Positions 37,734-54,507 of a stretch of 64,000 nucleotides of DNA are shown here, in pieces. The stretch's first letter is position 1, and the number at the start of each line of letters is the position of its first letter. A program made the translations under genes and the position numbers. The stretch comes from Rhododendron vialii (Eukaryota > Streptophyta > Magnoliopsida > Ericales > Ericaceae), in contig NC_080562.1 of NCBI RefSeq assembly GCF_030253575.1, forward strand, positions 29,963,852 to 30,027,851, given 5' to 3'. The notes below the pieces were generated by a model. That model was not told the origin of the DNA. It ran no database searches and saw nothing but the letters and a program-made list of their open reading frames with translations.

Positions 37734-38070
37734 ATTTTTTTTTAAGAAGAAATTAATTACAACTTACGTAAGAAATTTTTACTCTATGATAATCATTTTA
37801 AGATTGTTCATAAGTAAAAATGTAAGACAATTCAACCATAGCCTTAACCATTTTACTTTAATTAGAAAACAAGTTAATACTACTCCAATATCAGTTTTGC
37901 TATTTGAATTGAAATGCATTTTTGAATAGTTACATATTCTTTACTTTGCGAAGTACTAATAGAATAAAAGAAGAAATTTCTTCAGACTCCATTCTCAGGC
38001 TTCTCAAAACAAACAATTAATTGAATAATTAAATACTAGTAATTAGACAAAATAGAGGGGATGGTACTTA

Positions 38071-38308
38071 GGCTCCGTTCCAGAAATCTTTTTAAAAAAT
38101 AAGCAGTTTATTTCATATTTTCAAACTCAAAAATAATATAAATGAAAAATAATTTTTTAATTTTTTTTGCACCGTATTAAAAATCTTGATGAGATTTATT
38201 AAATAAGATCCATATTAGCAGAAAATTTATTTATATAAACACATTATTTTTAAGTTTGAAATTACATTTTTAAAAATAAATACTTAATTTACGTTCCGAA
38301 ACGGAGCT
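38071..38308. mobile_element. MITE upstream of the ERF gene
   Basis: Ends GGCTCCGTTCCAGAAA and GTTCCGAAACGGAGC; AT-rich inside with mirrored TTTTTAAAAAATAAGC and ATTTTTAAAAATAAATAC. It lies about 550 bp upstream of the ERF TATA box. Confidence 0.6.
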
Positions 38309-38501
38309 TTAGTCCATATGTTATCTAGTGCTCCATAAGAGAGTGATGAATACGCTCCGAAGAAGAGCGTGGGAAAATTAGCTTGAACAACGGCCGTCTT
38401 GAGGGAAAGCCGGCACAACTATATTGGGCCGCTTGTCTCGAACCTCCCGTGTGCCACGTACCCCCTCCATTATTAAACAAAACAAGTGCCACCTGCTCCT
38501 G

Positions 38502-38533
<32 letters not shown>

Positions 38534-38858
38534 ACCCCCGTGGCCCCGGGCGGCGCTTCCCCTCTCACCAGTCAATCCCCTCGTTGACTGCGCCCCCACA
38601 CCCCCCGGGGCCCCACTCCTCTCTCTCTCCTTTTAAAAATAAAAAATTACTCAGAGTAAGAATACAATTTTAAAATGGAACTCTATACAATCGTATTTAG
38701 AATCGTTTGATATATTTAATTTGGAACACAATTAATTGCGAAATTATGTTTTAAAGTTGTGTTCATTACATTTATTCTGAACACAGTTATGTCTAAAATT
38801 ATATTTTAAAATTGCGTTGTTACGTTGCTTGTTTCTAAAATCCCCCACCTCTCCCCTT

Positions 38859-38866
38859 TATAAATA
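38859..38866 (+). promoter_or_regulatory. TATA box of the ERF gene
   Basis: TATAAATA lies 84 bases upstream of the start codon. Further upstream, AGTCAA near 38570 and TTGACT near 38583 are W-box cores on opposite strands about 13 bp apart, typical WRKY sites and common in defence-responsive ERF promoters. Function is inferred from motif. Confidence 0.7.
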
Positions 38867-38949
38867 GACTTGCCTCTCCCCACACCAAATCCACAACACC
38901 ATCTCACACGCATATCCATATCTCGATAAAACTCTCTCGTATTTTTAAA

Positions 38950-39657
38950 ATGGCTGCGAAGGGGAAGACCGGCGGCGTTAAGGGAGGCAACGGGAAGCCC
39001 AACGGCGTCAACAAGGAGGACATTGCGCATTACAGGGGGGTGAGGAGGAGGCCGTGGGGCCGGTACGCGGCGGAGATCCGGGACCCCACGAAGAAGAGCC
39101 GCGTGTGGCTGGGCACCTTCGACACCGCGGAGGCGGCCGCCAGGGCTTACGACGCCGCCGCCGTCGAGTTCCGCGGACCCAAGGCCAAGACTAATTTCCC
39201 GTACCCCTCGGAACCCCTTGCCCCCGACAACCACAGCCCCAGCCAGAGCAGCACCGTGGAGTCGTCCAGCCACGGCGGGGCATCCCACGCGCCGGTCGAG
39301 CTCGACCTCACGCGCCGCTTCGGTTGCGGCGGAGGAGGTGGGGGTTCAAGTGGTGGCGTATCTGTCGCTGGGTATCCGGTTTTTTACAACCCGGCGGCGG
39401 CGGCGGGGGTTGGGATGGCGGTCGTGCCCCAGGCGCATCACGCGTTGTACTTTGACGCGCTGATGCGGTCGGGGATGGTGGGCAGGGGAATATCGTACCA
39501 CCACCACCGTGTCGCCGCCGAGTTGGAGGGCGGAGTCGGAGGGGGAGCGCAGAGTGAGTCGGACTCGTCCTCTGTTGTCGACTGTAACCCGCGCGAGGGC
39601 AATCGCGGAGGTGTTTTAGATCTTGATCTTAATTTTCCCCCACCGATGGAAGCTTGA
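38950..39657 (+). CDS. ERF-type AP2 transcription repressor with EAR motif (ERF3/ERF4/ERF8-like)
   Basis: An intronless 235-residue protein. The AP2/ERF domain spans about residues 28-84 ([19 protein letters not shown], then [19 protein letters not shown]) and has the Ala of ERF rather than DREB proteins in the recognition sheet. A Ser-rich linker leads to [10 protein letters not shown] (about 115-124), a Gly-rich region, and a C-terminal EAR motif [10 protein letters not shown] (223-232). The combination defines class II ERFs (ERF3, ERF4, ERF8-12 group), which bind GCC boxes and recruit TOPLESS-type co-repressors in ethylene, ABA and defence responses (family knowledge). The start is the first ATG 84 bp after the TATA box. 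The coding region is far more GC-rich than its surroundings, usual for this family. Confidence 0.95.
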
Positions 39658-39659
39658 CC

Positions 39660-40240
39660 ACTGATAACATATCAACGTAGATATATATATATATACATAT
39701 AAGGCTAATAAACATTATTATAGGTTGGCTTATATGTAACATGTTTATTTGTTTTTCTTTTTGCAACTTATTAAGGGATTAAGTTGTTAAGTACTCCTTG
39801 TTAGTCCTTAATTGAATGGGTTAACTTTAACTGTAATCGCTCTCACTTTGCTATTGTTTTTTGTTGTAATAATTTCAAAAGCATTCGTTGACCATTATTG
39901 GTACTATTTATTTCAGGATTTCGTGAGAGATTTTTCCCAGTAAGTCTAGGTACGCATCCACAAGTCACTTCTTTCTCATATATGTGTGGGGTTCATTTTA
40001 TAATTAAATGTGTGGATCGGACACATGTGAGAATGAGTGGTTGGAGGAGTGATCAGTCGAATGTACGCAACGTTGCTCGATTTTTCCTACGGTCTGAGAT
40101 TTGCTACAAAATCTTGGCTGTGAAAAAATTTGAGGTAATAGAGAGAAGGAAGGGGGGCGGATCCGGTCACGTCTACAATTTCGTTCAGAATAAAACTGGT
40201 CGGAAGAAATTTAACCGGATCTTACCCCAGAAGGAAGACC
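39660..40240. other. ERF 3' flank and intergenic DNA
   Basis: AT-rich 3' flank with a short TA run after the stop. The plus-strand frame at 39898-40296 has no recognisable domain and runs into a GA repeat. Confidence 0.5.
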
Positions 40241-40278
40241 ATGATCAAAAAGAGAGAGAGAGAGAGAGAGAGAAGGAA

Positions 40279-40678
40279 GACCCACATCGGAAATGACCGC
40301 TTGAAATACAGTAAAACACTGTGGACCACGCAATCCTGTGACCCTTGTGGGTGCATTAAGGTGATGGAACGCGAGTTGCCCAGGGAAGAGGGCAAGTGGT
40401 TGCCGGTTCGATTGCCCCGCTCAACGCAAGCCGTGCAGCCCACGCGAAGGACAGCTTCGTCGTGGCTGCTAAGAGGGCCCAGTTCGACGGGGGACAGCAC
40501 CTGCTGTCCAGGCTAAGCGGGGCTCGCTCTAATCTTATCTCGATGGTCAGAAATGTTCATTTCGTAGAACTCGTCAAGCAGAGCAACCTGCTGTCCTTCT
40601 TAAGCGGGGTCCGCTCCAATCTCGTTTCGATGATCAGAAACATTCATTTCGTAGAGCTCGTCAAGTAAAGCAATTTTT
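40279..40678 (+). ncRNA. Putative USE-driven small RNA gene, subfamily A, copy 1
   Basis: Starts with GACCCACATCG, one base from the plant snRNA/Pol III upstream sequence element (RTCCCACATCG). About 60 bases on comes a block shared by the whole local family: CCTGTGACCCTTGTGGGTGC, then GGTGATGGAACGCG. Here ACCC-TTGT-GGGT replaces the CCC-AAGT-GGG hairpin of other copies, keeping the pairing. The unit ends at a T5 run (40674-40678). Its 3' half holds a 90-base tandem duplication (around CGTAGAACTCGTCAAGCA). The RNA identity is unknown: it is not U1-U6, 7SL or 5S by inspection. A dispersed repeat with a chance USE-like box is the alternative. Confidence 0.4.
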
Positions 40679-40907
40679 CAAAAAATAAACTCAATTTTAA
40701 GTAATGACTAGTGTCAGCTGACCTGCTTAATCCATAACCTAAAACACTTGACTCTGTAGCTCATAAATTTAACCTCAAGTTATATAATAGCTGGTCGGAT
40801 TCAATTACATATCATTTCACCTTACTATTATTTCCTGATGTGAGATTTACTTGACTCATAAGGTTAACCTTAGTTTAATTTCATTCTCTTTTTGGTCAGC
40901 TTGAATG

Positions 40908-41046
40908 TTTTTTTTTTTTTTTTTTTTATCCTCAAAAACTACCCATAGGGCTACACAGAAAGCATCAGCTTGAAAAATAAATGAGTACAAGAAAAGACAG
41001 GGCGCATAGCCACCCAATTCAAAGGTGGAAAACCCACCCCCTTCCA
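40908..41046 (-). mobile_element. Probable LINE 3' end with A tail
   Basis: A plus-strand T20 run at 40908-40927 is preceded, on the minus strand, by 3' UTR-like text (TCTTTTCTTGTACTCATTT, then TGTGTAGCCCTATGGG). No coding part remains. Called from layout only. Confidence 0.35.
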
Positions 41047-41195
41047 CCTCTTTTTTATTTTTTTTGTCATTCGTTAATCCTAATATACTCTATTAGAGAA
41101 CTTGGAAAGAGGATGAGTGCTTACGGGAATCGAACTCTGCCCATGTGGATGATAGTATAACGGAGGCACCAACTGCACTCCACTCCACTTGCGTA
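41047..41195 (-). mobile_element. tRNA-derived SINE
   Basis: On the minus strand the head has a Pol III A box (GTGCAGTTGGTGCC) and a B box (GAGTTCGATTCCC) about 35 bases apart, followed by a short body and an A-rich tail (plus-strand T-run about 41050-41066). This is the SINE layout of about 150 bp. A diverged copy of the head is at 44955-45030 within a duplicated block. Confidence 0.45.
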
Positions 41196-41409
41196 GAACC
41201 CCAACTTGTCAATCTAGATTTTGCACGACTTATTTTGCCAAAGAATAGACGAAACCATGTCTTCGGCTACTAATTACCAAACCATCTGAGAACATCTATA
41301 GCTTTTGTCATTGAATAGAACAAAAAACATCGGAGCAAGATTCGCAATTACTCAATAAATAAAAAAAGCATGTTGCGAAACCCGGGATTACAACTTAAGC
41401 ATGGGGATA

Positions 41410-41785
41410 ACTCCCACATTGCCAAGAAGGGAAAACACTAATCACTATATTAACTCCAAGCAATTAACAACTAATCGCCGGGCTTAACAACGCAAGCCTG
41501 TGACCCAAGTGGGGGCATTACGGTGATGGGACGTGGGCTCGGCCCAAAGAGCAGGGCCTGATGTTGCTAAATACCGGCCTGCCCTATCCAAGCAGGGAGT
41601 TGGGTCACGGAGCCTAGGCGAAGGCCCGGGTTTCGTGGGCCTTAGAGTAGAGGGCAGCGCGTTAGGCTGGTTTCACAGAGCAGCGAACACCTCTCGCTCT
41701 TGGCGGTGGAAGGTTAACGGGCCGGTGCAACTATGGCCCAATAAACGCTCTGATTGGTTGAACCCTATCGGACCATCACCTTTTT
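41410..41785 (+). ncRNA. Putative USE-driven small RNA gene, subfamily B, copy 1
   Basis: A USE-like box ACTCCCACATTG (41410-41421), then GCCGGGCTTAACAACGCAAGCC (hairpin GGCTT/AAGCC), CCCAAGTGGG, and a GC-rich body. GGTGATGG (41522-41529) is fully complementary to CCATCACC (41773-41780), which abuts a T5 run (41781-41785) like a Pol III terminator. Inside, AAGGCCC/GGGCCTT and GGGCC/GGCCC form further stems. The longest open frame lacks any known domain and shifts between copies, so RNA rather than protein is the likely product. The USE here differs at two positions. Confidence 0.45.
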
Positions 41786-42256
41786 GTTATTTTTAGTTTA
41801 CTTTGTCCCTATTCTCTCGGCCAATTTTAATTTTTTCCAATGTGTGTTTGGAACATTAGGCACAATATATGGGAAATTAAAGAAATTACGTTTGCGTCAT
41901 AAGAGCAATATTGTTAAGTTATAGGTTTCGAAAGAACTAAAAAGAGTATGAAAAGAGAAAATCAGACATCAAGGTAAATACAAGCCGAACGAACCAAGCA
42001 GGTGGTTGATCAACTTTAATATGAAAATTTAAGGAGGTTCAATATGGCCCAATAAACGCTCTGATTGGTTGAACCCTAAAACGAGGGCAGAATGGAAAAT
42101 TTATTAAATTTTGGACATTGAATTCCGCAAAGGAACATAAATTAGTTTATAAGACTTAGGGCGTATAAAACTGACATATGTTTTCTTAAAATGATTGTAT
42201 TATTTCAATTTTCAATATTAGGTTTGGTTTACAAATATACAAGTGAAAATATTGAA

Positions 42257-42465
42257 GGGTAGGTTTGGATTAAAAAGTAATGAGTGATTTATTTTTTTGT
42301 CTTTATTCAAAAAAATTTGCATTTGTTAGTTTTGCGTCGTACTTTTTCGATTTCTATCGTCGAGACGAATCAATAAGTCACAAAAGTTTGACGCAAAACT
42401 AACTTATTGAATAAAGACAAAAAAATAAAATAAAATACTCCTTACTTTTTAATCCAAACCAACCC
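42257..42465. mobile_element. MITE
   Basis: Ends GGGTAGGTTTGGATTAAAAA and TTTTTAATCCAAACCAACCC, inverted. The arms continue through TTTTTTTGTCTTTATTCAA and its inverse. A fragment of the same family (TTTGGCGCAAAACTAAC) lies near 21940-22030 in pseudogene A. 209 bp. Confidence 0.7.
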
Positions 42466-42814
42466 TAAGCTTATTTTGAGCTATTTATGTTAACGCCCTT
42501 TTTTTAATTTGATTAACATTCTTTTCATATCTTTCGAGTTCCAGTAGTTGAGACGGAAAAAAAAATATGGATAATCACAAATCTAATCTCCGCAATGAAA
42601 AATTCCGAAGCCTAATGGAAAAACTTATAAGGGCATCAAACTTCTGGCTTCATCCTATGAGTAATGTACCAATTAGCTATGTACTGAAGATATGTTTGTA
42701 CACTATGTTTTTAAGTCTCTATGATATGTCTTGGAGATTGGGTTTCTCGAAGAAAATCAAAATAAAGAGGAATAACAAACTGGAAAAAGTTGAAATTTAT
42801 TTGCATTTCCTTTT

Positions 42815-43180
42815 TTTTTTTTTGTTTTTTTGAGAATAGACCATCACATAGTATATCCTTAAAGGCCAAGCGGCACTTACAAGGAATCCAACCAAAGTTA
42901 CAGAAATCAAAAAATATGTGCATCCCAACCAACAGATACACAAATTACAGCAAAGGGCTACCTAATTTCTTCCATCAAGGCACAACACTCACTGCACAAG
43001 TCAAATTGACACTTTGTGAATGCCATTAAAACTAGCCAACGACCAAAAATAGGCACCCAAGGGATCACAGATTCTAATCAATGCATAAACTTAAATAAGC
43101 CGTGGATTCCTAAACGACAGCAGCAACACAGCAAGAGGATACAACTCAAATCCCGTGGACAAAATCCACTAAGCACGTCG
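42815..43180 (-). other. Retroposon-like 3' end, uncertain
   Basis: Begins with a T-rich run at 42809-42828. The minus strand then reads as non-coding transcript-like text. It is absent from the otherwise duplicated partner at 47345-47400, which supports its being an insertion of about 370 bp in copy 1. No domain. Confidence 0.35.
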
Positions 43181-43493
43181 GCCAAAGTAGACACTCTAAC
43201 GGCCCTATCTTCATTCTTTTTTAGAGCATCTCCAATGGAGTAGTTTTTCTTCAAATTAGTAATTATTTTTCCAATTGCTGTATGCTTTTGCTTCTTTTTT
43301 CTGGGAGGACGTTTGTCGGCGTAGGTGCCAACCTCGTTTCTTAATTAGCACAATTTATTTTGCCAAAGATTTGACAAAACAGTTTTTTGGCAATTGATTT
43401 GACCAAAAAACATTAGAGATTGGCAATTAATTAGTACACTCACAAAAAGTCAAAAACAGCAAAATCTGGATTACAGCTTAAGCATGGAGATAA

Positions 43494-43869
43494 GTCCCAC
43501 ATCGCCAAAGAGGAAAGCTGCTAATCACTAGATTAACTCCAAGCAATTAACAACTAATCGCCGGGCTTAGCAACGCAAGCCTGTGACCCAAGTGGGGGCA
43601 TTACGGTGATGGGACGCGAGTTCGGCTCCAAAGAGCCGGGCCCGATGTTGCTAATTGCTAGCCCGCCCTCTCCAAGCAGGGAGTTGGGCCATGTAAGCCA
43701 GGGCGAAGGCCTGGATTTCGTGGGCCTTAGAGTAGAGGGCAACGCGTCAGGCTGGTTTCACAGAGCAGCGAATACCTCTCGCTCTTGGTGGTGGAAGGAT
43801 TGTGGGCCAGCGCAACTACGGCCCAATAAATGCTCTAATTGGTTGAACTCTATCGGACCGTCACCTTTT
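43494..43869 (+). ncRNA. Putative USE-driven small RNA gene, subfamily B, copy 2
   Basis: An exact USE, GTCCCACATCG (43494-43504), then the GGCTT/AAGCC hairpin (43565-43581), CCCAAGTGGG, and GGTGATGG (43605-43612). The 3' strand is CCGTCACC (43858-43865), where the change from A to G keeps pairing as U-G, followed by TTTT. Inside, GGCTC-CAAA-GAGCC is a perfect hairpin, and AAGGCC/GGCCTT and GGGCC/GGCCC are kept. About 80% identical to copy 1 by eye. This is the best-preserved member. Confidence 0.5.
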
Positions 43870-44409
43870 AATTATTTCTAGAAACTTTTTTCCTATTCTC
43901 TCTTCCAATTTTTATTTTCCTTCAATTTTCCATTATGCACACACAATGTTCAGCATCACCTAAAGTATATTTTCTTTCAGAGTTTTTTGTATGGGAAATT
44001 AAAGAAAAACCTATTTACGTCGGAAGAACAATATTGTGAAATTGTAGGTGAAGCTTTCAAAAGAAAAAAGAGAGAGTATAAAATGAGAAAATCAGACATC
44101 GAGGTAAAGGAGGTCAAGACTAGGGATAATAAACGAGCCGAACAAACCAAGCAGGTGGTTGTTCAAGTTTATTTTGAAAATTTAAGGAGGTTCAAAAATA
44201 TGTTTCAAGACTAACTTGTTTATGAGATAAATTGATTTCAAATGGTCTTTAATAAATCAAACACGAGCGATTTTGACAATATTCACACACCTAAAAATGC
44301 TCTTTGGGCTTCCATTCTTTATTCAATGAATGCCACTGTGTATAGTTCTGATATTGAAAAAGAAGGTAATTATGGAAATTTTGAACCATGAGGGGCTAGT
44401 CCCATAAGG

Positions 44410-44601
44410 GAGAAATTTTCCGGTGTCAGGTGGTTATATTCCACATGAAATCCGTTCGGCACATTCGGACCGTCCAATACACTTTTGTACGGCTCGAATT
44501 GAAACCCTCTCTCTCCTCTCACCCCAACACTTTTTCTCTCTCTAAATCCGTTGCAACGAGCGGGTATCACGTGATACCCACCCGACACTGAAAATTTTTC
44601 C
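44410..44601. mobile_element. Mutator-type MITE with 9-bp target duplication
   Basis: 192 bp with inverted ends GAGAAATTTTCCGGTGTC and GACACTGAAAATTTTTCC, flanked by CCCATAAGG at 44401-44409 and 44602-44610. The perfect 9-bp duplication marks a Mutator-type insertion. Sister of 27516-27649. Confidence 0.82.
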
Positions 44602-45251
44602 CCCATAAGGACACCACTAATAGTTAACATCTTTGGCTCCATGGATCTTCTTCATCACACTGCTAGCAAAACCAAAGTGATGAATTTTCAATCTGAATTT
44701 CTCATACGTTACCTTGGCCGCCGAAACCAAACTTTTGCGAAATTGCAACGTAAAATCGAGAGTTTGTCTTCGAATTGTTTTCCTCCACTTTCTTTAAGGT
44801 TTCTTGATTGCCAAACAAAACAAAACCAACCCCCTTTGTCTCTATGCACGTGGTACTAAACCCAAGTCCTCTCACCATGCACTTTGGCTAGATGTTTAGT
44901 CTCCCCCCCCCTCCCTCGTTCATTGCTCATCAGGAGCAGAGCTATGTAAGGACTAGGTGCTTATGAAAATCTAACCCTGTCTATGTTCGTGCAAGTATAA
45001 CGGAGGCAGCAACCAAATTCCACTCAACTTACGTAGAACCCCAACTTGTCAATCTAGTTTTGCACAACTTATTTTGTCAAAGAATTGACGAAACCATGTT
45101 TTTGGCTACTAATTAGTAATTACCAAACCATCGGAGAACATCTATAGCTTTGGCAATTGATTTGAACAAAAACATTGGAGCTAGATTGGCCAATTTCTCA
45201 AAAAAACAGCACGTTGCGAAACCGCGGATTACAACTTAATTATGGGGATAA

Positions 45252-45318
45252 GTCCCTCATCGCCAAGGAGGAAAAAGGCTAATCACTATATTAACAACGA
45301 TGCAACCGTCTCCTTTTT
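45252..45318 (+). pseudogene. Internally deleted subfamily B RNA unit
   Basis: GTCCCTCATCG (one change from the USE) is followed after about 35 bases by the very 3' end of the unit, AACCGTCTCC and a T5 run. The whole body is missing, while both flanks match those of the complete units. A non-functional remnant of the family. Confidence 0.55.
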
Positions 45319-46110
45319 ATTATTTTTAGAAACTTTTTCCTATTCTCTCGGCCAGTTTTTATTTTTTTTCAATATATGGAACAATATTGTAAAATTGTAG
45401 GTCTCGAAAGAACTAAAAAGAAAGTATGAAAAGAGAAAATCAGATATCAAGGTAAAGGAGGTCAAGACTAATCAACTTTAATATGAAAATTTAATCAGAC
45501 ATCAAGCCGAACGAACCATGTAGGTGGTTGATCAACTTTAAAATGAAAATTTAAGGAGGTTCAAAAATGTCGAGTTTAGCTTGTCTATGAGATGAGTCGA
45601 TCTCAAATGGAATTTAATCAAGCCAAACACGAGTAGATCTTGAGCAGTTTTAATTTTGTATACATCATAATCCAAAAGCGACAAGTTGTACCTTGTTCCG
45701 TCTGTTAGAAACTTATACTAAACGCCATGCTTTTATGTAATAGATAGATAAATATTCAATTGTTTGCTTATTAATCAGTTTCATCCATTTTGATGAGAAT
45801 CTTTTATGGGCAATATTTGAATTATATTATTGTATGATGTGTATGTATGTCTCTTATTTTACGATACGCGATGTGTATTTTGATATGATTCATGTAATGG
45901 AAAAACCCCGATACGAGATACGTCGTAACTCAATTTGAAAACACTGCTTGCGAGACTATTTTAAATCTTAACGAGCTTTGAATTTCTATATATGTTTCCC
46001 TTTCAGTTTAATTTGCAACTAATGGGGACAGTTACGGAATTTGGTGATGAGTTTTTCTTGCAGTCCGTCGGAGAGAATAGCAATCACGTAAGAATAGATA
46101 GAGGGAAGAA

Positions 46111-46477
46111 GACCCACATCGGTAAAGTGAAACAACTTTTAATTCCTTCATTTACCTCCTGAAGTGGATTACTGTTTGCCGGGCTTAGCCACGCAAGCCT
46201 TGTGACCCAAGTGGGGGCATTAAAGTGTTGGAACATATCTATACGTGGGTTCTGACCCGAGAACAGAACATGAGGTCGTGAATTGATTACCCGCTCAATG
46301 CCCTTGCGTGCACAGCCCACACGAAAGGTGCCCGGCCGGCTTCGTTGCCCTAGAGGGTGGATTTGGCTGCAGCAGAACGATCAGAGCCTTGAGACGTGCT
46401 TGCCTCCCTGCTCAATGCGATTTGAGTGGTATAGGACCACTACAGATCAGGACCCGTCGTTAGAACTATCACTTTTT
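46111..46477 (+). ncRNA. Putative USE-driven small RNA gene, subfamily A, copy 2
   Basis: GACCCACATCG (46111-46121), a TTTTAATT box about 15 bases later, then GCCGGGCTTAGCCACGCAAGCC, GTGACCCAAGTGGGGGC and AGTGTTGG (46222-46229). The 3' end CTATCACT abuts a T5 run (46473-46477). AGTGTTGG pairs with CTATCACT at seven of eight positions, and the first pair is A-U where subfamily B has G-C, a covariation. Inner stems include AGTGG/CCACT around TATAGGA. The body resembles copy 1 of subfamily A (CAGCCCAC, CGAAGG or CGAAAGG, GCTTCGT). Confidence 0.45.
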
Positions 46478-46669
46478 GTTATGATCCATTTCACATGCTG
46501 TTATAAGTTTGGCAAACCTTAAAAACTACTCACTCTAGCTGTTGCTAAAAAGTTAAGTTCTTATTTGAAAATTCAACTTTTGCTGAGACACAATAATTTA
46601 TTGTAAAATTTTTATTTTCTATAATTGCTCAAAGCATTGTTTTATCACTAGAGTTTTGTTTGGGTCCTA

Positions 46670-47976
46670 AAACGAGGGCAGAATGGAATATTAATTAAAT
46701 TTTGGACATTAAATCTCGCAAAGGAACATAAATTAGTTTATAGGACTTAGGGTGTATAGAATTGACGATTTCATAAAATGTTTGTATTATTTCAAGATTA
46801 GGTGTTTACAAATATACAAGTGAAAATATTTACGCTTATTTTAAGCTATTTATGTAATACTTTTTTTTAATTTTTGTATATATTCTTTTCATATTTTTCG
46901 AGTTCCGGTCGTTGAGATGAATTTATAATTAAAAAAAATTAAGACTTACAAATCACTAAGGGCATTTTGCATATCCCAACGTAGACTTGTAATATTCTCG
47001 TTTTTGGTCATCAAACTTCTGGCTTGGTCCTATGAGAGGTATACTTTGTTCAAAAAATGAGAAAGTGTCCCTTGTTCGAAATAGAGTTTCTAGACTTGAA
47101 AAACTGCCATTAAAGACATGCTTAAAAAATACGGATCGATAATCACAAATCTGATATCTACAATGAGAAATTTCCAAGCCTGAAGAAAAAACTTACGAGG
47201 ACATCAAACTTCTGGCTTGGTCGTATGAGTAATGTGCCAATTAGCATTTTGTATCGAAAGATACATTGTACAATATGTTATTAAGTCTCTATGATATATC
47301 TTCAAGATTGGGTTTCTCGAAGAATATCAAAATAAAAAGGAATAACATTCTAGAAAAAGTTGAAATTTCTTCGCTTCTCCTATCCTAACAACCCTAACTT
47401 CATTCTTTCTTAGAGCATCTCCAATGGAGTAGAATTAGTAAATATTTTCCCAATTGTTGTATGCTTGTGCTTCTTTTTTTTGGAGGACGTTTGCCATAGG
47501 CGCCAATCTCGTTTCTTAATTAGCACAATTTATTTTGCCAAAGATTTGACAAAACCAATTTTTTTGGCAATTGAATTGACCAAAAACACTGGAGATTGGC
47601 AATTAGTTAGTACTCACAAAAAGTCAAAAAAAACAGGAAATCTGGATTACAGCTTAAGCATGGAGATAAGTCCCACATCGCCAAAGAAGAAAGCTGCTAA
47701 TCACTACATTAACTCCAAGCAATTAACAACTAATCGCAGGGTTTAGCAGTGCAAGCCTGTTATCCAAGTGGGGGCATTCCCGTAATGGGACGTGAGCAGG
47801 GCCTAATGGTGCTATTTACTGGCCCGCCCTCTCCAAGCAGGGAGTTGGTCCATGGGTCCCAGCCGAAGGCCCGGGTGTCATGGGCACTAGAGTAGAGGGC
47901 AACGCGTCAGGATACCTCTCGCTCGCTCTTGGCGGTGGAAGAATTACATGCTTGCTTCTACGGCCCAATAAAAGCT
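46670..47976. repeat. Segmental duplication, copy 2 (partner 42060-43880)
   Basis: Follows copy 1 block for block up to CGGCCCAATAAAAGCT in the RNA unit, where the MULE starts. The remaining tail of the unit reappears after the MULE at 52605. Confidence 0.75.
47670..47976 (+). pseudogene. Subfamily B RNA unit, copy 3, cut by the MULE
   Basis: An exact USE (47670-47680) and the family block, but with changes in the hairpin (GGGTTTAGCAGTGCAAGCC), a weakened first stem (CGTAATGG) and a deletion of the CACAGAGCAGCGA segment. It breaks at ATAAAAGCT (47976). The missing 3' end, GATTGGTTGG...ACCATCACA and a T5 run, is at 52608-52639 beyond the MULE. The family copy is therefore interrupted and probably dead. 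Confidence 0.6.
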
Positions 47977-48539
47977 GAGGGCCTCTTCTCGCGCCCCCTC
48001 CCCCCCGGCCCCACTCTCTTTTCACTTTTGCCCCTTTATTTTCTGTTTTTTTATTTTATTTTTACTTTAACTGATTTTTTTTTGTTTTACTTTTAAAAGT
48101 AAATAATTATTGTTTTATTTTTTTTTACTTTTACTAATTTTTTTATACTATTAAAAGACTTTAATTACTGTTTTAATTTTTTTTAATTTTTCCTAATTTT
48201 TTTGTTTACTTATAAAAAACTTTAATTACTGTTTTTTTTAAAACTTTTACTATCTTTTTTTTGTTTTACTTTTAGTAGTTTTTTATTTTACTTTTAAAAG
48301 ACTTCTTACTATAATTTTAATTAATAAATGAATAATTAAAATATAACTTATACTAACATAACTTGTACTAATGTTAATTAATCAAACCAAACATAACTTT
48401 TACTAATTTCATTGAAGAGTGAAAATACATGAAAATTCAATTTCTAATCAATGTTTCCATCAAATTCTGCTCCTGTCCCTCTTGGTTTTGTCTCCATTAT
48501 TTCTTTCCACAAACTAATTCGTGTTGCATAACGAGCAGC

Positions 48540-51331
48540 CTATCTTTTAGCTTCGTCTGATGAATTGTTCCACCACCATATTGGATAGGGTGGTACAGGG
48601 TAATGAGGCTGCAAGAAAAGTTGCACAAAATGATTGTTCCCAACACGGGCAATAGCTATTTCAATGCGCTCTTGGGCTGGAACTGGAGGGGATCTCAATG
48701 GGAAGTGAGTAAAACAACCTGAAGGAAGCGCATCAAATGTATGCAGAACAAGGTTGTACGCCGAAGCGATGACAACTCCCATACTCATAGCATCCATCCA
48801 ATACTCATCTGGTGCCGAATCTTCAAAGTAATTTAAAGACCGTATTAGGTAGTTTGCCCAACCTATTTCTGGATATAGCGCATTACATAGATCCATATTT
48901 TGTTCAATCTCATTAATGAGATCTCTTCGAACTTGAGCCCAACGATCTTCACCATACCCTATGTGAGCGGCTATCGCCCTAAATCCACAATGACCGTCAC
49001 CTCGGACGTCATTAATGTGAGAAATGTAATGCTGATAAGCTCGAGGTAAATGCTGAATGTAGTCGATACGGATGGATGGAACTGAAAATTCATCACGGTT
49101 CGCTTGAGTTTTGCGAACTCCCTCGCCCCTCCCACGTCTCCCAGATTCGATCCTAGATGATGAAGTCGATATTTCTGTAAAGGAAGGAATGCGTCGTCCA
49201 CTTTGCTCCTCTCTACCAGTAGGTCGACCTCTATGAGCCGTGTTATAAGATGGGCCTCGAACTGTGCTCTGAGATGGATCCGTCATATCAATAATCCTGT
49301 CTATCATGTGCTCTCGGGTAGATTGATCCATCCCACGTAATCTGTCTACAACTTCATATGTTCTGTCCGGTCGTTCTCCGTCGTCATTCACAATGGGCGC
49401 ACGCATGGACAACTTAGTCCAATGATCGTGAATACTCTGAATCGGAATTGGCATGGAGTACCAATGGTAATATGCAAGATCATGTCTGCATGGCAATCCG
49501 TGCGTAATTTTTATTGTACAATCGCACAACTGGAACTGGAGGTAGGATGCATCTTCAGCGCATTGTAGTTGAACATTGATGAGCTCCATTGCCTCTAATG
49601 AAATGCGAGTTCTTACTTGTTGAAAAAGTTCGGTATGTATTTGCCAATGGCGGGGGATGTTGATAGATCTCTGAAATGACCTCCGAATGTCCCCGAACTG
49701 ATTTTTCAACATCTTGTCTATTTTCTTAAAAGCTTGTTGTAAGGATGACATAGTACCCCCCAAATATAGCTTCAGCCTCGCATGTGCGGACTCTGCCCTG
49801 TAATATAATAATGAACTGTGTTTAAATACGAAAGTTACAGAAATATTCTTTACAGTAGTACAATAATGTACGTAATTGAAATAGTAAAGGTAACAATGCA
49901 TAAAGTAACTATACCTCTGACTTGAATTCCTTCCGAGGTGCATACACGTATTTATCCATGCTGCCACAAACCTATCTCTGTACGGCATTAACCATGTATT
50001 GAAAAGGTATTGTAAGAGCTGCGGGTGTTGTTTATAGTCATCGCACATGGCATTCCACTTCTGATTGAAAGATGCTTCGGTCGTAAAATTAATAAGCGAG
50101 TGCCATGACATGTTAAAGTCGTTAAACGACGGACCAAGGACCCCTCTGCAGTGCTTTATTATGCATTGGTTGATGTGCCAAATGCAAAGAATGTGACGTG
50201 CCGAGGGAAAACATGCTTCAATGGTGCTAAGAAGCGCCAAATTTCGATCTGTAACAAACACCGATGGCAACAATGCCCCCCTTCCAAGCATCCATTTCTT
50301 TAAGGTACTCAGGGCCCAAGTCAAGTTCTCTATCCTCTCATTTGTAAGATGTGCAAACATGAGAGAGTAAGTGCACATTGTGGATGTGATACCTACAACC
50401 TCCAATAGTGGTAACCGGTACTCGTTGGTCTTGTATGTGGCATCAATAACCAATACGGACGGAAAGTTCACAAATAAGTCTAGGCTTTGAGGATGAACCC
50501 AAACAATATCAGTGATTTCGTTGGTGTATGGATTTGTACGATATTCATGGAGGTATCTTTTATGTATTAGTTGATTCAAGACAAACTGGGTAGGATTTAA
50601 ACCGTCTAGTTCTGCTATGTTATCCGTATATTTGAGGTTGTATATGCTTTGGGCACATGTAGTGTTTAACGGATTTTTTTTCTTTAAAACACTAAGAATT
50701 TCACGAGGTGCTGTGTTGTCCGCCATGTCGCGCACAATTTCTTTCTCCTCTAGTGTTAACCTTGACGGGTACCCATGCCCATCAAAATATTCAGCTGTTT
50801 CATGGTTATGGATACCACATTCAACCCTTACACCCCACATGATACCCGCTGGAGGTATTGGTATACCTCGCAGCTCAAATGGGCACTCGCATTTTTTTGT
50901 CCCAGTATTCTTTTGCGAGGATTGCCCTTCAACTGCATTCCATGCCGATCTATACTTCCCACTTCTTTCACAACTAAGAATGCACTTTGACAGCTTGCCA
51001 CCAATTAAACTAGCAGATTTCTTAATAACAATAACAATACCATTGTCTTTACCGACTCTTCGCACCCAAGCTACCATGTCGTCTCTACTTTGAAAAATCT
51101 ATAAGCAAGAAAAAAAGAATATGTAAGTGCAACATGATCCAATCTAATATGCATAATTTCTGTACTTTTTAAATTAAATAACTAATATGCATAAGAACAA
51201 CAGTAATAACTAACCTGGTGAGTTGTGAATTCGGGTGTATAGTCACGAAAATTATGGGAGACGCCCTCCCCACTAAGAACATCATTCTCAACGGACCAAC
51301 TATCTGAAAATGACAAGTTGTAGTTATCCAT
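48540..51331 (-). CDS. MULE transposase with SWIM and OTU-like protease domains
   Basis: Three exons (51331-51215, 51098-49915, 49797-48540) join in frame to 852 residues, starting MDNYNLSFSDSWSVEND. A FAR1/WRKY-GCM1-type zinc region (Cys78, Cys82, Cys109, Cys111, His136, His138 in HNHE) precedes the MULE catalytic core: Asp258 in VIDATYKTN, Asp323 in FVTDRNLAL, CIWHI, and Glu436 in RAESAHARLK. The SWIM zinc motif is CDC...CRH (525-539). After a basic linker comes an OTU cysteine protease-like domain with DVRGDGHCGFRA (Cys704) and GNNHFVQL (His823). Intron 2 is 117 nt with no in-frame stop, so unspliced RNA would also be readable. No disabling change was seen. OTU fusions are known in some plant MULEs; their role is unsettled. 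Confidence 0.9.
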
Positions 51332-51784
51332 AATCTTCTTCTATGTTTTACAAACGGTGTGGAAAAGGAAGGAGGAGCCGTGACAGAGGAATGGAGAGAG
51401 AAATAGATGCTGAAAAGATAGTGATATTGGAGGGATAAGCAGGGAGATGGAGGTGATGGGAAGAAGATGGTGATTTTGGAAGGATAATACTGGATATATA
51501 AGGATAAGGGGTGATGGATGAATAGTTATAGTTAAAGATAAGAAGATAACAAAAAAATCTGAATGTGTGATTGTAATTGAAGATAAAAAGAAAATCTAAA
51601 TGAGTGGTTATAGTTGAAGATAAGAAGATAAAGGAAATCTGAATAAGTGATTAGAAATAAATTAGATAAAAGATATAAATAAATACAAAATTAATAAATT
51701 CAACAACATAAAAGAATTATAAAATTTTAATAGATAAAAAAATAAGAGTAAAATTTCAATAACATAAAGAAATTTACTCACGTA

Positions 51785-52500
51785 TATAATATTAAATAAT
51801 TTAAAAATACATATAAAGAGTAAAAAAATAAGTGTTCCGATTTTTAATTCGTTTGAACCGGTGCGAAGATCTTATTTTTCTTATCATTTCATCCTAAATG
51901 GGCGTAATTAATTTTTGACTCTAAGGCCTTTCAATAAGCACCCTAAGAGAGGCCTGAAACTAAATAATAAGCCTTAGGGTACTTGTTGAAAGGCCTTCGA
52001 GCCAAAAATTCATTATGATCATTGAAGACAAAATGATAAAAAAAACAAGATCTTTGCATCGATTCAACCGGATTGAAAATTGGAACACTTAAATAATATT
52101 AAATAAATAAAAATGAAAAAAGATATAAAAGTTATTATTGCTAGGGTATAATATTAAATAATTTAAAAATACATATAAAGAGTAAAAAAATAAGTGTTCC
52201 GATTTTTAATTCGTTTGAACCGGTGCGAAGATCTTATTTTTCTTATCATTTCATCCTAAATGGTCATAATTAATTTTCGGCTCTAAGGCCTTTCAATGAG
52301 CACCCTAAGAGAGACCTGAAACTAAATAATAAGTCTTAGGGTACTTGTTGAAAGGCCTTCAAGCCAAAAATTCATTATGATCATTGAAGGCAAAATGATA
52401 AAAAAAACAAGATCTTTGCATCGATTCAACCGGATTGAAAATTGGAACACTTAAATAATATTAAATAAATAAAAATAAAAAAAGATATAAAAGTTATTAA
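51785..52500. repeat. Two tandem copies of a palindromic element
   Basis: A 353-bp segment occurs at 51785-52137 and 52147-52500, nearly identical. Each copy is a foldback: AAGTGTTCCGATTTTTAATT at one end mirrors TTGAAAATTGGAACACTT at the other, with CTAAGGCCTTTCAA and TTGAAAGGCCTT near the centre. The inner text GTTTGAACCGGTGCGAAGAT is shared with 11892-13010. It lies upstream of the MULE gene, within the MULE ends. Confidence 0.85.
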
Positions 52501-52542
52501 GTAAAAAAAGAAAATGCCGTGGGTTGGGTGTTTGAATTATTG

Positions 52543-52543
<1 letters not shown>

Positions 52544-52576
<33 letters not shown>
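52544..52576. repeat. G33 homopolymer
   Basis: Thirty-three consecutive Gs next to the right MULE end. The length is likely unstable and uncertain in the assembly. Confidence 0.95.
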
Positions 52577-52577
<1 letters not shown>

Positions 52578-52765
52578 GGTGCGCAAAGAGATTTGGTAAA
52601 AGCTTCGATTGGTTGGCCCCAACGAACCATCACATTTTTATTAGATTTAGAATACTTTTTCTATTCTTTCGGCCAATTTCTCTTTTTCCAATATGTTTGA
52701 ACATATATAGTGCATGATATTGAGCTTTCACGCTCTTTGTTCTCGCTCACAATCATTGTCTGACT

Positions 52766-53600
52766 TAGGACCTGTTTAATAAAATTGAAACTGAATGTTG
52801 AAAAATTAAGTCCTAAAAGCTGAATGCTAAATTTTTTTAAGCTGAAAGGCTGTTTGATAAACATATTAAGTACTGAATTAAAAAAATAATAAATTAATTT
52901 TAGTTTCAATTCTCTCTTAATTTACTAATGGTCACAATGCACTTATAATAATGGTGGAATGGTGATTGTGGTGGTGGTGTGTTGGTGGTGATGTGGCGGC
53001 GGTGGCGGTGGTGGTGTTGGAGTGCTGGCGATAATAGTATAATAGTGGTGGTGGAGTGATAGTGATGTAATGGTGGTGGTGGTGGCAGTGGAGTGATGGT
53101 GTAATGGTGACAGTGAGTGATGTCGGTAGAATGATAGTTGTGCAATGGTGGTATTTGTGGTGGCGGCGGCAACGACGGTGTGGTGGTGGTGGCAGTGTGG
53201 TAATGGTGGTGGTGGTGATGGAATGATAGGGGAGTGGTGATGATGTAGTGATGGTGGTGGTAGAGAAGTGGTGGAGTGGTGGTGATGGGTGGTGATGGTG
53301 GCAAAGTGATGGTCGTGGTGGTAGTGGTGATGGTGATGGTGGCGAAGTGGCGGTGGAGTGGTTGTAGGAGTGGTGATGGGAGTGGTTGTGGTGGTGGTAT
53401 GGTGATTAAATGCAAGTACACATGAATTCAGCCGGAATTAAGTAGCTCAAAGCTACTTAATTTTTTTCAACTTTTTAGCCTACATTTTAAGTAGCACTTA
53501 ATTGTTAAGCAATGTATAATGTCGTTATCAAACCTACTGAAACACTTATTACTTAATTGATTCAGTTTTAAGTGCTGAATTTATGTTATCAAACTAGCCT
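52766..53600. mobile_element. MITE with an internal GTG minisatellite
   Basis: The left end TAGGACCTGTTTAATAAAATTG is an imperfect inverse of the right end TATGTTATCAAACTAGCCT, and AGCTGAATGCT, TTAAGTACTGAA and their inverses continue inward. It resembles hAT-type MITEs with a CTGTTTGATAA terminus. The centre is occupied by the GTG-rich array below. Confidence 0.5.
52940..53402. repeat. GTG/GTGAT-rich minisatellite
   Basis: About 460 bp built of GGTGGTGATGG-like units with no fixed period. The 171-codon His/Pro/Thr-rich minus-strand frame through it is a repeat artefact. Confidence 0.9.
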
Positions 53601-53930
53601 TTAGTTGTAACCATTTCTAAAGGAAAAATTTTAGTTGCTCTTGAAGCACGGCCACGTGTTGCTCCAAGCTAATGCGGAACCAATATTTTATAAACGAGGG
53701 GATCGGACATGATTATGAAATTTAAGGGTTCAGGTATACAAAATATTTAGATAACTAATGCTGTGTTCAGTTCCATATTTTCAAAAAAAAATTGAAAAAA
53801 GTTTTTCAAAATCGGTCCACCCTTGGACCCCACACTTCTATAATGGACATCCCCCCAAAAAATACAAAAAACAAAAAAAAACAAAAAACAAAAACAAAAC
53901 ATGAAAACCGAAACAGATCGTCAAAGACAC
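53600..53930. other. Intergenic, nothing recognised
   Basis: AT-rich flank between the MITE and a GA repeat. A tract of AAAACAAAAAACAAAA near 53865-53900 has no clear origin. Confidence 0.4.
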
Positions 53931-53937
53931 ACCTAGA

Positions 53938-53973
<36 letters not shown>
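53938..53973. repeat. (GA)n microsatellite
   Basis: About 17 GA units, followed by a GGAGAC triplet-like repeat and a GC-rich stretch (53975-54130) that could be the leader or first exon of an unidentified gene. Confidence 0.85.
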
Positions 53974-53977
<4 letters not shown>

Positions 53978-54148
53978 AGACGGAGACGGAGACGGAGAAG
54001 AACGGCCCCCTCCACGGCAACGACACCATCGGCGAGGCCTACTTCCGCGCGACCACTGCCTCACCCTCTACTTCCGACGACCACCATAAGTAGTGAAAAT
54101 TGACCACCAAAAACTCACCGACACCACCTACGCCATTTACGACCACCA

Positions 54149-54151
<3 letters not shown>

Positions 54152-54204
<53 letters not shown>
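54152..54204. repeat. (CT)n microsatellite
   Basis: About 26 CT units starting at AAGGTCTCTCT, so a GT splice donor could lie at its left edge (CAAG|GTCTCT). Confidence 0.9.
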
Positions 54205-54206
<2 letters not shown>

Positions 54207-54507
54207 GAGTCTTGATTTGGCTCATGGCTTTGAAAACCCCCTTCAATTATTAGGATTCAGTTGAAAATTGATGCCGTGATCTGTTTTTGATAAATTCAAT
54301 TCATAATAGGAAACTCATAAAATTACCAGATAATTGGTAACCTGTCCTAAAGAGAGGAAACTCAAAATCTACTTTTATCAATATTTATGTTGTTTTCGGA
54401 TAGATAGAGAAGTGCAGTGGCTTCTGGTTTGTGAAATTGGGGATTTTTTGGTTTGTTCAAACCTAAACATTGAGTAGCTCTTGTGCATACATTCTTTAGC
54501 CTACTCT

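Follow-up and report, generated by a model that had tools for sequence, protein, structure and literature searches.

The six related units on the forward strand between 40.3 and 52.6 kb of a stretch of 64,000 nucleotides of Rhododendron vialii DNA (NC_080562.1, positions 29,963,852 to 30,027,851; this whole stretch is called the window below) are almost certainly copies of the plant gene for 7SL RNA that arose by local duplication. 7SL is the RNA of the signal recognition particle (SRP), which directs new proteins to the membrane of the endoplasmic reticulum. Clusters of 7SL genes and pseudogenes have been reported earlier from tomato and hop, and the window holds an ordinary local cluster of this sort, novel only in adding further members to a known kind. 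An original prediction, made from the sequence alone, had correctly recognised six related units on one strand, but had left their identity unknown and had excluded 7SL. That exclusion was wrong, because the Rfam family RF01855 (Plant_SRP) matches two of the units, here called B1 and B2, end to end and above its curated gathering cut-off of 105 bits.

Identity of the RNA

The scores of B1 (240.3 bits, E 9.2e-71) and B2 (217 bits, E 1.7e-63) are more than twice the cut-off, and both matches run over model positions 1 to 305. The covariance check that had been suggested for RNase MRP, RNase P and telomerase RNA was run and returned Plant_SRP and none of these three: they are absent both from the gathering-score matches listed for the window and from the matches listed at E ≤ 0.5 for positions 38000-54500. 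The RF01855 cut-off was missed by B4 (83.1 bits) and A46 (34.8 bits), and A40 and B3 gave no Rfam match at E ≤ 0.5 in the scan of 38000-54500. The units are built as follows, each with an upstream sequence element (USE) or a USE-like box:

40279-40289 (+): USE-like box of A40, GACCCACATCG, one mismatch to GTCCCACATCG
40326-40377 (+): 7SL Alu-domain remnant of A40, without TATA region and RNA 5' end (blastn)
40577-40700 (+): dispersed repeat adjoining the A40 remnant, outside any 7SL gene (genome matches)
41411-41421 (+): USE of B1, CTCCCACATTG, two mismatches, core at -64
41446-41453 (+): TATA-like box of B1, TATATTAA, at -31
41477-41783 (+): B1, full-length plant SRP (7SL) RNA gene (RF01855, 240.3 bits, model 1-305)
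42040-42078 (+): short duplicated piece from the 3' domain of 7SL (blastn, 40 columns at 87.5%)
43494-43504 (+): USE of B2, perfect GTCCCACATCG (motif search)
43529-43536 (+): TATA position of B2, TAGATTAA, differing by one change from TATATTAA (sequence reading)
43560-43868 (+): B2, full-length plant SRP (7SL) RNA gene (RF01855, 217 bits, model 1-305)
45252-45262 (+): USE of B3, the deleted unit, GTCCCTCATCG, one mismatch (motif search)
45287-45318 (+): TATATTAA box of B3, RNA nearly all deleted, then 3' end and T5 run (repeat comparison)
46111-46121 (+): USE-like box of A46, GACCCACATCG, core at -65
46178-46477 (+): A46, degenerate 7SL gene (RF01855, 34.8 bits)
47670-47680 (+): USE of B4, perfect GTCCCACATCG (motif search)
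47736-47976 (+): B4, 5' part of a 7SL pseudogene (RF01855, 83.1 bits for 47736-47993)
47977-52596 (-): Mutator-like (MULE) DNA transposon inside B4 (PF10551 and flanks)
52605-52639 (+): 7SL 3' end of B4 past the MULE, T5 run at the end (similarity to B1)

The predicted structure agrees with the family match. Of the 123 model pairs, 104 form in B1 and 101 in B2; the other four full-length genes form 99-106 of 122 or 123. Both carry the Alu-domain 5' motif and the closing long helix 5, and the tip of helix 8, which is the SRP54 site, is exact in both (GGCUGGUUUCACAGAGCAGCGA). Furthermore, B1 folds better than its shuffled versions (z -4.47). These units resemble plant SRP RNA as defined by RF01855 in the full model match, the Alu-domain motif, the helix-8 tip, the USE/TATA promoter and the T-run end, and they differ in being clustered locally, with two units full-length, four broken and promoter lesions in the B copies. 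One Arabidopsis transcript is assigned to plant SRP RNA in the available part of an earlier report (PMC4660826).

The remaining units are reduced in different ways. In the alignment, internal deletions of B4 take in the helix-8 tip, and its 3' end continues beyond the MULE, where 52597-52680 aligns with the 3' region and flank of B1 at 79.8% identity over 84 columns. A46 retains the 5' Alu part and the closing stem; its S domain is unrecognisable, and its best helix-8 match needs 5 substitutions, 2 insertions and 1 deletion. The helix-8 tip is likewise unrecognisable in A40. This 40.3 kb unit had been taken for complete, but it has no Rfam match and its 3' part is the dispersed repeat at 40577-40700: when A40 is used as a query, 38 of the 39 non-self matches are confined to its positions 308-431, which correspond to this repeat. 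Its 7SL remnant is 88% identical to the 43.56 kb unit over 50 nt and 85% identical to A46 over 46 nt (blastn). A structured new RNA was considered for A46 and rejected, the minimum free energy giving z -0.16 for A46, +0.65 for a relative of 95% identity (L025) and -1.19 for A40. Since A46 has no folding excess over shuffles, it is treated as degenerate; on sequence grounds, the A units are degenerate 7SL derivatives and no separate RNA.

No tRNA genes were found within the window. MicroRNA matches (MIR533, MIR9486, MIR2118, MIR408, mir-737 and mir-3012) fell below their own cut-offs and lay on AG/CT or inverted repeats.

Promoters and local duplication

The USE is bound by SNAPc in plant 7SL genes. 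With at most one mismatch, GTCCCACATCG occurs five times in the window, always on the forward strand (40279, 43494, 45252, 46111 and 47670), against 0.49 expected, and 0 of 100 shuffles reach five. The sixth box is the near-match at 41411-41421, with two mismatches. Promoter spacing was examined in an alignment of eight 7SL loci, namely B1, B2, B4, A46 and those at C1:47.93, C6:41.76, C6:29.68 and C8:10.47 Mb. The USE core CCCACAT starts at -64 in seven of the eight and at -65 in A46. At the TATA position, TATATTAA stands at -31 in B1, C6:29.68 and C6:41.76, B2 and B4 have TAGATTAA and TACATTAA, each one base off TATATTAA, and C1:47.93 has TATAAG at -29; in this alignment no TATA is listed for C8:10.47 or A46. 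B1 ends in a T5 run (41781-41785) and B2 in a T4 run (43866-43869). The predicted layout of an RNA polymerase III (Pol III) gene, with USE, TATA and T-run, is therefore borne out by motif matches and spacing. The GCAAGCCTGTGACCCAAGTG block described as common to the complete units, the deletion at 45.25 kb and a MULE at 47.98-52.6 kb are all present as well.

Flanks are common to the units and are seen as direct repeats; therefore, the units spread by local duplication, as the original prediction had proposed. Almost certainly, local duplication copied a 7SL gene together with its flanks and its external Pol III promoter, in which the USE lies about 65 bp and the TATA about 31 bp upstream of the start. 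Of the copies, B3 has lost its RNA, B4 has internal deletions and the MULE insertion, A46 is left with its 5' part and closing stem, and A40 is a stub.

The MULE has a transposase reading frame at 48540-51077 on the reverse strand (PF10551 MULE, E 1.7e-24), and TAAAAGCT stands as a direct repeat on either side of it (47969-47976 and 52597-52604). Two further features were noted within the element. At 51785-52446, a 300-nt stretch that has long inverted repeats occurs twice, the two copies being 97% alike and bearing sub-threshold MIR9486 matches, and a long poly-G tract at the right end (52544-52576) is possibly hard to assemble.

Copies elsewhere in the genome

When the genome was searched with RF01855, 27 of 2521 first-look candidates were scored, which makes the counts lower bounds. 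Of the 23 matches at E ≤ 0.001, four lie in the window. Six matches exceed the cut-off, comprising three B-type copies (two in the window and one at C6:29.68 Mb) and three others. The two top scores belong to C1:47.93 (256.4 bits) and C6:41.76 (242.4 bits), and C8:10.47 scores 236.7 bits. The C6:29.68 Mb copy lies 329 kb from the cluster on the opposite strand. As a DNA query, the B unit matched at least 11 pieces across the genome (drawn from 10 first-look candidates), with five B-type loci, B1-B4 and C6:29.68. A high-copy transposable repeat, with many dispersed copies, was accordingly rejected, and the expectation that the B units show no sign of high copy number holds at this lower bound.

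Three single loci were noted as well. The 95% identical relative of A46 on C5 (L025, C5:14.771 Mb) is 5'-truncated, and by eye the 3' end of its RNA runs straight into what resembles a further 7SL 5' domain; it may be a template-switch chimera. L052 (C11:28.937 Mb) has just the 3' half of 7SL, from the helix-8 tip to the T run, and is perhaps a 5'-truncated retrocopy. L020 (C1:44.659 Mb) is another 7SL-like unit, scoring 37.2 bits to RF01855. Its USE is perfect and lies at -64, its 5' end is of the Alu type and a helix-8-like motif is visible by eye, but its middle is different.

Sequence constraint among the copies

Comparison of the full-length genes points in part to constraint on the RNA. 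Measured against B1, the genes at C1:47.93, C6:41.76 and C8:10.47 carry 17, 10 and 12 two-sided pair changes and 12, 15 and 17 one-sided changes with pairing kept. The RNAs of B1 and B2 are 88.9% identical and their flanks 61.7% (-160 to -67) and 64.8% (120 bp downstream); across the three full-length B copies the ranges are 88.9-90.2% for the RNA, 56.5-82.6% upstream (-160 to -67) and 61.2-68.8% in the 120 bp downstream. For the pseudogene B4 compared with C6:29.68 the order is reversed (upstream 93.5%, RNA 79.8%). Differences between B1 and B2 are fewer in the Alu and helix-8 parts (4/98) than elsewhere (30/206; Fisher p 0.006), and B2 and C6:29.68 likewise differ at 4/98 motif positions and 31/206 others (p 0.004). 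In addition, randomly placed substitutions keep as many pairs in 109 of 5000 trials for B1 to B2 and in 27 of 5000 for B1 to C6:29.68.

Several observations weigh against functional constraint and activity of the B copies. The same three comparisons with B1 contain 15, 21 and 19 pairs lost or gained, and B1 against B2 gives a single two-sided change with pairing kept, 8 one-sided changes and 9 pairs lost or gained. B1 and C6:29.68 differ at 8/98 motif positions and 23/206 others, which is not significant (p 0.54). The flank identities ignore insertions and deletions, and the direct-repeat comparison gives 72% for the USE region. The random-placement signal is a modest one and leans on B1 as the starting point, and folding of B2 is just moderately above shuffles (z -2.31). 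All three full-length B genes also have a changed promoter: the USE is weak in B1, whose TATA is good, the TATA is altered in B2, whose USE is perfect, and the USE of C6:29.68 (GTCCCACATAG) has one mismatch. Overall, the constraint signal is of moderate strength and is not uniform.

Activity and alternative explanations

Each of the full-length B genes has a promoter lesion. Pol III with SNAPc may transcribe B1, B2 or both weakly, or may have done so until recently, yielding an RNA of about 305 nt usable in SRP; judging from the sequence, there is about an even chance that B1 or B2 is still active. Most 7SL is probably supplied by the genes at C1:47.93, C6:41.76 and C8:10.47 Mb. Only slightly less probable is that all six units are silent 7SL pseudogenes and the plant uses the C1, C8 and C6:41.76 Mb genes alone, a sub-case of the 7SL identity that contests nothing but the activity of B1 and B2. 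Four of the six units are plainly broken, every full-length B copy has a promoter change, the two best genome scores lie at C1:47.93 and C6:41.76, and 9 pairs are lost or gained between B1 and B2, all of which would fit silence. However, B1 with its 240.3 bits and 104/123 pairs formed exceeds the C8 gene (236.7 bits), the RNA of the full-length B copies is better conserved than the flanks, and the C8 gene is itself without a listed TATA, so that promoter variation may be tolerated.

The other two explanations fare much worse. A new family of USE-driven small RNAs distinct from 7SL, for example RNase MRP- or telomerase-like, would share its promoter type with other plant Pol III genes; the available part of a report on plant telomerase RNA genes (PMC6765143) describes a USE bound by SNAPc, a TATA and a terminator, elements also present in the window units. 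However, no telomerase RNA, MRP or P family is among the matches listed for the window at gathering score or for 38000-54500 at E ≤ 0.5, and the full-length Plant_SRP match refutes this explanation for the complete units, leaving it a negligible probability. A SINE-like (short interspersed nuclear element) transposable repeat with a 7SL head is somewhat less remote but still very improbable. It could draw on the 95% identical, 5'-truncated relative of A46 on C5 and on other 7SL derivatives in the genome that look retroposed, but the B units have their promoter and outer flanks in common, unlike retroposed RNA copies, and the B unit matches 11 pieces genome-wide as a lower bound. The preferred interpretation therefore stays with local duplication of a 7SL gene.

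A 7SL-like array on C4

Outside the window, the part deserving a second look is an array on C4 (labels L008, L010, L013-L017, L019, L022 and L023). With a 357-base unit from C4 as query, the search gave 35 pieces, all on the C4 forward strand between 41.913 and 42.032 Mb, of which 17 include the USE-bearing part of the query, at 75-100% identity. Eleven units were read within 33 kb; the pieces at 41925568 and 42016392 in this stretch were missed by the motif and stand outside the count. Nine of the 11 have a USE at -66 or -67, eight as GTCCCACATTG and one as GTCCCACATCG. The unit at 41943275 starts at the edge of the stretch read and its genome match spans the whole query; the unit at 41959613 has no USE. 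The 7SL 5' end and closing stem are retained in all 11, and the first T4 run marks a recognisable 3' end (preceded by CAC, TGC, CGC or TAC) in every one, at 225-523 nt. The helix-8 motif, allowing up to three substitutions, occurs once in seven units, twice in three and three times in one. These modules are direct repeats: L017 has three of 81 nt, L010 has two of 143 nt, and L022 is arranged similarly. Pairing of the 5' and 3' strands is predicted in 11/11 units, with duplex energies of -17.3 to -33.9 that have no shuffle control and come from related, not independent, units. Two units folded with controls gave z -4.16 and z -2.12 (the latter including 25 nt of flanking sequence). The nine C4 matches listed in the RF01855 genome search score 33.7-50.1 bits, below the cut-off, and the C4 units are therefore classed as 7SL-like and not filed as SRP RNA.

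The nearest comparison is with the rodent 4.5SH RNA genes, likewise 7SL-derived Pol III genes multiplied in an array; according to the available part of one account (PMC10137851), 4.5SH RNA is 94 nt long and its genes exist in hundreds of copies in tandem repeats of 4-5 kb. The same part gives 4.5SH internal A/B boxes and a TATA-like box, whereas the C4 units have a USE/TATA promoter, lengths of 225-523 nt and helix-8 modules.

Copies of the Alu domain

A 113-nt element on C5 used as query gave at least 12 matching pieces, and two of these 12 (L056 and L057) are genes with an upstream USE, at C5:27.154 and 27.128 Mb. The C5:27.154 Mb gene carries TTTATAAG and a USE core at -64, and its T4 run comes after 118 nt. 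The other USE-bearing gene on C5 (L012), in which the USE core lies at -62 and 59 nt precede the T4 run, is probably inactive. Eleven of the 12 pieces were examined, and six of the nine non-USE pieces were tested for flank repeats, with L061, L063 and L064 outside the test. Several of the dispersed copies start at or within the RNA, and similarity fades near position 113-118; against such a common end, L061 continues past 118 with source-like sequence. L054, L058 and L060 (C5:28.214, C9:33.372 and C3:28.784 Mb) each have a shared flank word that was equalled by 0, 0 and 3 of 1000 shuffles, respectively, the L054 site lying within locally repetitive sequence. In L055, L059 and L062 no flank repeat beyond chance was found (742, 869 and 84 of 1000 shuffles). 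These features suggest that an Alu-domain transcript of about 118 nt existed and was retroposed, from a gene like that at C5:27.154 Mb.

Such copies would resemble the SINE1 elements (Alu, B1 and hagfish SINE1-1_EBu), which are retroposed Alu-domain 7SL RNA, and in the available part of PMC7245038 7SL-derived retroposition is reported from Euarchontoglires and hagfish. They differ in that the copies here amount to just 12 or more matching pieces, in a plant, and form no established SINE family. Among the titles listed in a literature search that took in few subscription journals, none dealt with plant 7SL arrays with repeated S domains or with plant 7SL-derived SINEs.

A bolder possibility, which we consider rather doubtful, is that 7SL has become a superfamily of USE-driven RNAs in this plant. 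It would include the C4 RNAs, which with one to three SRP54 sites could hold several SRP54 molecules, and a retroposed branch of about 118 nt from the C5:27.15 Mb Alu-domain gene, which would be a plant counterpart of the birth of Alu and B1.

Implications

To conclude, the cluster corrects an identification and illustrates how a group of plant 7SL genes grows and decays, by duplication, deletion and MULE insertion. If the Alu-domain copies were retroposed, they would extend 7SL-derived retroposition to plants. If the C4 array is transcribed, the SRP RNA of this plant would not be a single fixed molecule, and RNAs in which the SRP54 site is repeated would offer a natural test of the Alu and S domains acting apart.

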